From positions 1 through 32,968 of the forward strand of contig JAILFE010000073.1 in assembly GCA_024697725.1 (NCBI GenBank): a stretch of DNA of 32,968 nt. Reading direction: 5' to 3'. The notes under the pieces were generated by a model, which did no database searches, was not told where the DNA came from, and was given only the letters and a program-made list of their open reading frames with translations. The first letter of the stretch is position 1. Each line of letters starts with the position of its first letter. Shown here piece after piece: positions 9,031-11,436 of the stretch. This stretch comes from Oscillospiraceae bacterium (GTDB lineage: Bacteria > Bacillota > Clostridia > Oscillospirales > Ruminococcaceae). Position numbers and translations under genes: made by a program.

Positions 9031-9951
9031 TTATTGAAACTGAGTTTCTATCGTCTTTTCGGAACAGCTCGTAGAATATGTCCATCTGTCGATATGGTCG
9101 CCGGCGGTGAAATACTTTATGGGCGGCAGGGGAGAATCATCATCAAATACATCCACGAGTATAAGCTTGACCTTCATTTTTTCGGGTATCAGTGCTTTTA
9201 TGTATACTCCGGCGTGCTGTCCCTCCCTGACACCCGCACGAGGCTCGGCAAGTCCTGCAAGATTGGGCATGAGCTCCACGAATATACCGTATTCCTCGAC
9301 CGAACGTATAGTTCCGGAAACAGTTTCTCCGCAGGAGAACAAAGCTGCATTCTCGGTCCATGTGCCGAGCAGTTCCTTATGGGAGAGCCAGACTCTGCTG
9401 CCGTTTATACCCTTGACGACAGCACGGATATCCTGTCCGACAGAGAATCGGTCGGACGGGTGAGATATGCGCGATACCGATATCGCATCTATAGGTATCA
9501 GCGACGGTATACCGCAGCCTATATCCACAAATGCGCCGAACTGTTCGAGATGTGTCACCTTTGCAGATATGATATCGCCCGGTCTCAGTGAATATGTGAA
9601 GCTGTCGATATAATCCTGCTGAACGCTTCGTCTTGACAGTATAGCGGTCTGCTTCCCGCCGATATCCTTTATCGCGATAACGCGAAAGCAGACGGGCTTG
9701 TTTACCTTTGTTATAAGTGCGATATCCCGTGTCGTTCCGTCGCTTATCCCGACAGCGCCCTCTTCACGCGGTATCACCGCGTTCATTCCGGGGATATCGA
9801 CGATAAGGTCATGGCTGCTCGTACAGATGCTTACCCGTGCTTCGAGTATCCTTCCGCTGCGCATCGCCTCCGCAAGCGAATGCGGATCACGCAGAGCGCT
9901 GATATTTTCCGCAGTATTGATAAGTGAGCCCTCCGGCAGAAATCTTTTCAT
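9031..9951 (-). CDS. S1 RNA-binding domain protein (ribosomal protein S1-like, 306 aa)
   Basis: GDIISAKVTHLEQFGAFVDIGCGIPSLIPIDAIS and GETVSGTIRSVEEYGIFVELMPNLAGLAEP S1 motifs; a more degenerate N-terminal S1-like repeat. Confidence 0.88.
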   Translation of the reverse strand: MKRFLPEGSLINTAENISALRDPHSLAEAMRSGRILEARVSICTSSHDLIVDIPGMNAVIPREEGAVGISDGTTRDIALITKVNKPVCFRVIAIKDIGGKQTAILSRRSVQQDYIDSFTYSLRPGDIISAKVTHLEQFGAFVDIGCGIPSLIPIDAISVSRISHPSDRFSVGQDIRAVVKGINGSRVWLSHKELLGTWTENAALFSCGETVSGTIRSVEEYGIFVELMPNLAGLAEPRAGVREGQHAGVYIKALIPEKMKVKLILVDVFDDDSPLPPIKYFTAGDHIDRWTYSTSCSEKTIETQFQ

Positions 9952-9957
9952 TTTATT

Positions 9958-10114
9958 GACCGATCCTTTCCTCGCCGCAGCAGAAATGCCGCATTTGTGC
10001 CGTGATAAACGGCGATCCCTTTTTCTGTTCCGAGTTTATTGCCCCCAGGCAACTCTCTGTAATGGAGCAATAGTTTGTGCGGGAACAGTAAATATATATG
10101 CGCACGGATCGGTC
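9958..10114 (-). ncRNA. Candidate structured intercistronic/leader RNA upstream of the S1-domain gene
   Basis: Nested complementary arms GACCGATCC/GGATCGGTC, CTGTTCC/GGAACAG and ATTGCTCC/GGGGCAAT, plus hairpins GCCGT-ttatc-ACGGC and AAATG-cgg-CATTT (minus-strand sense). Confidence 0.5.
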
Positions 10115-10140
10115 TTTATACACGCACGGAAGAAAACCGC

Positions 10141-10488
10141 TCAGATGCAGCGTATATTATGCCCGCCGCAGTTCACTACGATGCGTGATACGTCCCTTGC
10201 ATCTGCTTCACGACATACGAATTCGGCAGAATATCTCCCTCTCGGCATATATCTCATGTCATTTCTGCCGAAAACGGGGTCGATACTGCATACGGGCGAG
10301 GTCGGACGGTTTATGTCATATAATCCGCTGTATACGGCATAGACCGTACCATAATCCTCATCTGCATAATTGTTTCGTGCGGTATTGCTCTTTACTGCGA
10401 TATCTAATACCTGCGGCACCTTTCTCCTTACGGCGCCGGCTGCCGCATCGCATTCATCGGGGGTATAGAATTCGGCTCTGATCTTCAT
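10141..10488 (-). CDS. Hypothetical protein (115 aa)
   Basis: Intact ORF with plausible RBS (GAAAGGATCATGATGCCATG); no family recognised. Confidence 0.6.
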   Translation of the reverse strand: MKIRAEFYTPDECDAAAGAVRRKVPQVLDIAVKSNTARNNYADEDYGTVYAVYSGLYDINRPTSPVCSIDPVFGRNDMRYMPRGRYSAEFVCREADARDVSRIVVNCGGHNIRCI

Positions 10489-10612: not shown

Positions 10613-10648
10613 AAGAAAAAAAACGTCGGCAGGTAAGTCTGCCGACGG
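10613..10648 (-). terminator. Intrinsic terminator for the secreted hypothetical gene
   Basis: CGTCGGCAG-N6-CTGCCGACG, followed by a U tract on the minus strand. Confidence 0.85.
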
Positions 10649-10656
10649 AAGAACGA

Positions 10657-11436
10657 TCATATTTCGGTACGGATGCTTTTTTTGGATGACAGCTCATAGC
10701 TGCTGCCGTTTTTATTCAGCAAAAGATAGTATCTTTTGCCTGCTGTGACCTCACTGTCAAAGAGAACAACGTTGAATTCTGACTTGACACTGCCCTTTAC
10801 AGTCTTTATCACACGACAGGAATAAAGACCGCATCCTTTGCTGCTGTCGGATATCCGCCGCACCACTTCTGCATACACGACAGCATCCGAGGCGGCTGTG
10901 ATCTCGGATATATCCGAGGAGCGTATGTAATCCTTGGCGGCGACCGATGTGTCGGGGATTCCGCCCATATACTTCTTGAGCGCAGAAACGCTTTTCGGCG
11001 GATTCTGGATAGTTATGTCCGAAGCGGTCATGCCGGTGATCTGATTTGTGCTGTCAACGGATATCAGCAGATCGCCGTTGAGAGTATATCTGTCATGCTC
11101 GTAGTATACGGATATATCGGAATCGAGCATCAGAACATAGCGTTTTCCGGCTTCGAGACGGTCTGCGAGCTTTTCATCGGCAGTTACGTAGAAGTACTTT
11201 TCGGAAAGCGTGTTCTTGAGCGTGCGTATCACCTTGAATTTATATTCTCCGTCCTCCCTGCCGACGTATGATGCGAGAACAGAACAGTCGCTTTCGGAAA
11301 TACAGGTATATATATCAAAACTGTCGGCTTCTGCGTTATAGTATGATTCGGCACACGCTGCCATGCCAGACCCTCCGGCTGCGGAAAGCAGCACGGCTGC
11401 GGCAGCAGCGGCGAAACCGAGTTTATTCATTTTCAT
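10657..11436 (-). CDS. Secreted hypothetical protein with two related repeat domains
   Basis: Signal peptide MKMNKLGFAAAAAAVLLSAAGGSGMAACAES; internal similarity between the FKVIRTLKN..LEAGKRYVLMLD and CRVIKTVKG..VTAGKRYYLLLN blocks. Confidence 0.75.
   Translation of the reverse strand: MKMNKLGFAAAAAAVLLSAAGGSGMAACAESYYNAEADSFDIYTCISESDCSVLASYVGREDGEYKFKVIRTLKNTLSEKYFYVTADEKLADRLEAGKRYVLMLDSDISVYYEHDRYTLNGDLLISVDSTNQITGMTASDITIQNPPKSVSALKKYMGGIPDTSVAAKDYIRSSDISEITAASDAVVYAEVVRRISDSSKGCGLYSCRVIKTVKGSVKSEFNVVLFDSEVTAGKRYYLLLNKNGSSYELSSKKSIRTEI

Follow-up and report, generated by a model that had tools for sequence, protein, structure and literature searches.

Read-through of RNA polymerase between neighbouring genes is common in bacteria, and the question of how stage-specific proteins are kept silent despite it is largely unexamined. 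The closest described systems come from a phage and from a sporulating bacterium. The genes e (lysozyme), soc, 49, and I-TevI of phage T4 carry a hairpin at the Shine-Dalgarno sequence (SD) in early read-through RNA, which is absent from the RNA started at the late promoters; for gene e, the 5' strand of the hairpin is encoded by the late promoter region, and the effect has been shown by experiment to be about 100-fold (PMC3014915). For sigG (spoIIIG) of B. subtilis, a large hairpin, which is unable to arise in transcripts of the sigG promoter itself, has been proposed to block translation of the spoIIG read-through RNA (PMC5942855). The locus described here lies on a stretch of 32,968 nucleotides from an Oscillospiraceae bacterium (contig JAILFE010000073.1; the whole stretch is referred to as the window), in which a gene coding for a 306-amino-acid S1-domain protein (9031-9951, minus strand) is preceded by a folded leader. 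This gene is probably equipped with an anti-SD embedded in its promoter, acting as a safety catch that silences read-through RNA and is absent from RNA started by SigE, the mother-cell sporulation sigma factor.

The upstream regions of the orthologues have no fold in common; what they share is a bipartite motif at fixed spacing, GMATATT-N13-GCATAnAATT, the consensus of which was built from 67 orthologues and which scores above 9 in 200 of the 228 loci of this S1 paralogue. In the window, it is represented by the predicted -35 element GTATAAA (10115-10121, minus strand) and the predicted -10 element GCATATATAT (10092-10101, minus strand), separated by a 13-nt gap and reaching a joint position weight matrix score of 17.5. 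Element lengths and spacing fit the SigE consensus of B. subtilis (8-mer, 12+/-1, 10-mer; PMC517825), not that of SigK, and the -35 (kmATAtt) and -10 (CATAnnnT) features of SigE promoters are both present at SigE spacing. An identical motif is found upstream of spoIIIAA and spoIVA in related genomes, with scores above 10 in 16 of 26 spoIIIAA loci and in 12 of 36 spoIVA loci. A search of the window's own genome with a strict SigE pattern returned 3 matches versus 2 for a control pattern and thus carries no weight. As judged from the sequence, the motif before the S1 paralogue should be regarded as a predicted SigE promoter, and transcription would start at about 10085 (10083-10087, minus strand), some 6-9 nt past the -10 box.

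The outer helix of the leader consists of nine base pairs between a 5' arm, GACCGATCC (10106-10114, minus strand), and a 3' arm, GGATCGGTC (9958-9966, minus strand), which takes in the 3' half of the SD together with the spacer between SD and AUG. The ATG at 9951 follows the SD core, AAAGGA (9964-9969, minus strand), at a distance of 12 nt. The original prediction had described this helix as the outermost of three nested ones, with its 3' arm overlapping the SD; all arms named there were recovered at their coordinates on the minus strand, and the overlap exists, if only through the last three bases (GGA) of AAAGGA. The minimum free energy (MFE) structure of 9940-10130 (minus strand) includes the outer helix, CTGTTCC/GGAACAG (helix 2, 10082-10088 with 10025-10031), and ATTGCTCC/GGGGCAAT (helix 3, 10064-10071 with 10038-10045). 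Because the 5' arm lies between the -35 and -10 elements, upstream of the predicted start, it would be absent from SigE RNA; the SigE transcript is thus predicted to be unable to form the outer helix, whereas a read-through transcript can. The pair probabilities of the helix are about 0.99-1.0 when the RNA start is upstream of 10114, and folding gives the 3' arm a probability of being unpaired of about 0.002 in read-through RNA versus 0.28-0.47 in SigE RNA. Masking of the SD by the outer stem, with a predicted effect on translation, is thus supported. Judged blindly, the leader fold is of modest significance (MFE z -2.2, with 6 of 200 shuffles equally good); it becomes strong when only the promoter spacer is allowed as the site of the 5' arm, the spacer-SD duplex of -21.7 kcal/mol then having a P of 0.0005.

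The pairing was followed across 133 non-redundant orthologues, about 100 loci having been added after the first 66, by comparing the spacer-SD duplex energies of matched pairs within a locus with those of pairs swapped between loci. The first 66 loci yielded -10.93 for matched versus -9.03 for swapped pairs (z -6.4), the enlarged discovery set -10.85 versus -9.01 (z -6.5, 0 of 3000 permutations), and a held-out set of 64 loci -10.34 versus -9.08 (z -4.0, 1 of 3000), so that conservation of pairing by coevolution of the arms is seen in discovery and held-out sets alike. In a sliding scan, the signal peaks sharply at the spacer (z -9.1) and drops to -1.1 just downstream and to about -0.7 at 120 to 70 nt upstream. 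All four members of the genus, i.e. the window's genome and three congeners, possess such a helix with differing arm sequences.

The strength of the pairing varies with the orientation of the upstream gene, as expected if the helix silences read-through and is therefore kept mainly where read-through can occur. The 70 loci with a co-directional upstream gene show a z of -9.4, compared to -2.2 for the 38 loci with a divergent one, and the corresponding duplex excesses are -2.97 versus -0.47 kcal/mol (p 1.8e-4). The predicted mean probability of an unpaired SD at co-directional loci is 0.28 in read-through RNA versus 0.45 in SigE RNA, while the values for divergent loci are 0.44 and 0.50. Confounding by clade was ruled out, since the effect is even larger at 16 co-directional loci with other, unrelated upstream genes (excess -4.8 kcal/mol, p 3e-5 versus divergent loci), and the difference between co-directional and divergent loci keeps its sign in all three strata of GC content.

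The same arrangement recurs at other SigE genes of the mother cell. For spoIVA and spoIIIAA together (20 loci), the spacer-SD pairing reaches a z of -4.0, and with pdaB included (36 loci) a z of -4.4 (0 of 5000 permutations). Generic genes from the same DNA show a z of -1.2 over a broad region, and one of four test segments showed a slight effect of 0.6 kcal/mol. A phylum-wide set of spoIVA loci is suggestive, but a control segment was equally significant (z -2.9), and no claim is made outside the Oscillospirales. In single spoIVA loci outside the order (L394, L413, L411, and L335), spacer and SD are highly complementary, with duplexes as strong as -25 kcal/mol. The sigG gene served as an informal positive control, since four of the five true sigG loci fetched have strong SD-masking hairpins; those of the Oscillospirales (L440, L450, L456, and L443) are very long, reaching 22 bp in L440, and overlap an apparent SigF-type promoter.

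The proposed mechanism would work as follows. The S1-like gene would be transcribed in the mother cell from the SigE promoter at 10121-10092, the spacer of which would double as an anti-SD. Polymerase that continues past the end of the co-directional upstream gene would produce an RNA containing this spacer, in which GACCGATCC would pair with GGATCGGTC and mask the ribosome-binding site, and such RNA would not be translated at the wrong stage or in the wrong cell. A transcript initiated by SigE at about 10085 would lack the 5' arm, leaving the site exposed and allowing the protein to be made. The computed support comprises the promoter motif, its identity with that of spoIIIAA and spoIVA, the locus-specific pairing, its dependence on upstream gene direction, and its recurrence at other SigE genes. 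From the sequence we infer the start site, the existence of read-through RNA, the effect on translation, and the harm that mis-expression would cause.

A possible source of read-through is a small co-directional gene (10141-10488, minus strand) coding for about 115 amino acids, which is a conserved neighbour in 54 of the S1 loci and whose product belongs to no Pfam or NCBIfam family. A terminator scan found no strong terminator between this gene and the SigE promoter. A strong intrinsic terminator with nine pairs and a T8 tract is situated farther upstream (10624-10647, minus strand), between the small gene and one for 259 amino acids (10657-11436); therefore, read-through into the S1 gene would have to start at a promoter of the small gene itself. 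In relatives (e.g. L012, L045, and L067), the region upstream of the small gene contains a conserved AAAGGCAATATTTTC ... ATTATA. On the opposite strand, this reads as a sigma-A promoter (TTGCC-N17-TATAAT), and a divergent vegetative gene may accordingly lie there.

Several observations weigh against the safety-catch interpretation. A search for a SigE or SigA promoter of the small upstream gene gave no clear result. A weak spacer-SD signal persists at divergent loci, and the direction of the upstream genes was assigned by a simple open reading frame caller. In the window, the AAAGGA is unpaired with a probability of 0.19-0.82 in SigE RNA, depending on the fold limits, versus 0.49 in read-through RNA, so the release of the SD in SigE RNA is predicted to be only partial in some folds of the long leader. 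The loci share ancestry, and the permutation counts are therefore not exact probabilities. Part of the contrary evidence corresponds to what would be expected if the inverted repeat of the window had arisen by chance at an otherwise ordinary SigE promoter, with neutral hairpins in the leader: shuffled versions of a 200-nt leader contain a perfect arm pair of at least 9 bp in 5.6% of cases, and most single loci miss significance, only 33% of the co-directional ones reaching P<0.05 against shuffled spacers (3% for generic genes). The P value of the spacer-restricted duplex speaks against chance, as do the replication in the held-out set, the sharp positional peak, the dependence on direction, and the recurrence at other SigE genes, making this explanation an unlikely one. 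Alternatively, the complementarity might act in the DNA, as half-sites of a regulator or as a local DNA structure affecting promoter function. The arms are indeed situated in the promoter, and the counts of G-U versus A-C mismatches do not discriminate selection at the RNA level from that at the DNA level; yet the complementarity persists while the arm sequences vary freely, unlike a protein-binding site, one of the arms is always the SD, and the orientation of the upstream gene has an influence. We consider an action at the DNA level quite improbable on these grounds.

The inner part of the leader turned out to be peculiar to the window's genome, where the leader measures 140 nt compared to 43-50 nt in the congeners. 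The 5' arm of helix 2 (10025-10088, minus strand) straddles the predicted start, and helix 3 (10038-10071, minus strand) is formed in both RNAs; neither is conserved. Conservation of the arms in orthologous loci thus applies to the covarying spacer-SD pairing and does not extend to the inner helices, which are absent in the congeners. Two small hairpins lie in the same region (9977-10013, minus strand), one at 9999-10013 and one at 9977-9992 (GCGGCA-TTTC-TGCTGC), the latter displacing the originally proposed AAATG/CATTT (9984-9996) in the MFE structure. The former (9998-10014 on the plus strand) looks like a weak plus-strand terminator with the tail ATCCCTTTTT. No DNA-level similarity to the leader was found at the orthologous position among 150 relatives; a 48-bp match of 80% identity is found in a different genus at a site unrelated to this locus (L036, G087:C21:1381-1428). 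The nested fold of three levels with its hairpins, and an SD located in the outer stem, would suit a metabolite-sensing RNA switch with the outer helix as expression platform. However, the search of Rfam suggested by the original prediction matched no known family at the gathering score, nor on the reported strand at E<=5, the inner architecture is absent in congeners, and no aptamer-like sequence is conserved apart from the promoter, which leaves such a switch hardly any credibility. A SAM-SAH score in a permissive Rfam search was rejected as a chance hit on the other strand.

The 306-amino-acid protein contains one clear S1 domain (Pfam S1, E 3.7e-19), and partial matches to ribosomal S1 models stay far below the curated cut-offs. 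The canonical S1 of the window's genome is encoded on a different contig as an IspH-RpsA fusion, and the gene is not rpsA but a short paralogue. Orthologues are present in 127 of 150 relatives. Of the 9 genomes in which no strong SigE was detected, 8 lack the gene, compared to 15 of the 141 with one (Fisher p 8e-7), and the gene should therefore be regarded as linked to sporulation. It is not universal among the sporulators of the order, since SigE is present and the paralogue missing (E<=1e-20) in G091 and G134 (family f2), G103 and G125 (f14), and G105 and G127 (f16). As a predicted SigE-controlled gene conserved across an order of gut bacteria, it is a candidate for a role in mother-cell translation.

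In E. coli, the leader of rpsA is autoregulated by S1, and the original prediction had considered an analogous control reasonable here. An S1-binding operator would agree with the stably folding leader of a gene for an S1-domain protein. The gene's identity already argues against this proposal, as do the fold, lengths, and arms of the leader, which are not conserved within the genus. Moreover, the conserved feature is common to spoIVA, spoIIIAA, and pdaB, none of which encodes an S1 protein. Autoregulation also does not predict the dependence on the upstream gene's direction, and transcription from the gene's own promoter would leave the structure incomplete, as the 5' arm lies upstream of the predicted SigE start. 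Autoregulation by S1 is therefore very improbable.

Beyond this locus, anti-SD sequences in promoter spacers could be a general device of sporulation regulons in the Oscillospirales, and possibly other Bacillota, which evolved in stage-specific genes downstream of co-directional genes, with one DNA stretch selected for both sigma recognition and RNA pairing, and with the direction of the neighbour predicting its presence; we advance this generalization tentatively, rating it somewhat below an even chance. If true, promoter evolution would have to be interpreted on two levels, and the timing of such proteins would be misread from RNA-seq data alone. For any spore former, sequence data allow the rule linking spacer and neighbour direction to be checked. 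A search of the open-access literature, subscription journals not being covered, revealed no previous survey of this type.

Compared with the known systems, the window shares with E. coli rpsA a structured leader before an S1-domain gene. It differs in the gene concerned, for which neither ribosomal S1 identity nor a conserved fold within the transcript was found, and in that its conserved element resides in the promoter and is common to non-S1 genes. With T4 gene e and sigG it shares an SD-masking helix whose 5' arm, given the predicted start, precedes the point at which the gene's own transcript begins. As with T4 gene e, the longer RNA would be silent and the promoter-derived RNA translated, as predicted from the sequence of the window; the phage case rests on experiment and that of the window on computation, and phage late promoters and a bacterial SigE promoter are not akin. 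With sigG, the window shares a sporulation gene, the proposed read-through from a co-directional gene, and a helix predicted to be lost in the RNA from its own promoter, as also applies to the sigG loci of the Oscillospirales. In contrast, sigG uses SigF and SigG in the forespore, while the type found in the window occurs at SigE genes of the mother cell (S1 paralogue, spoIVA, spoIIIAA, and pdaB) and has a smaller helix with the 5' arm in the promoter spacer. Novel compared with these systems are the occurrence at mother-cell genes under SigE, an S1 paralogue among them, and the placement in the spacer. The same holds for the coevolution, which is supported statistically across many genomes, and for the influence of neighbour orientation.
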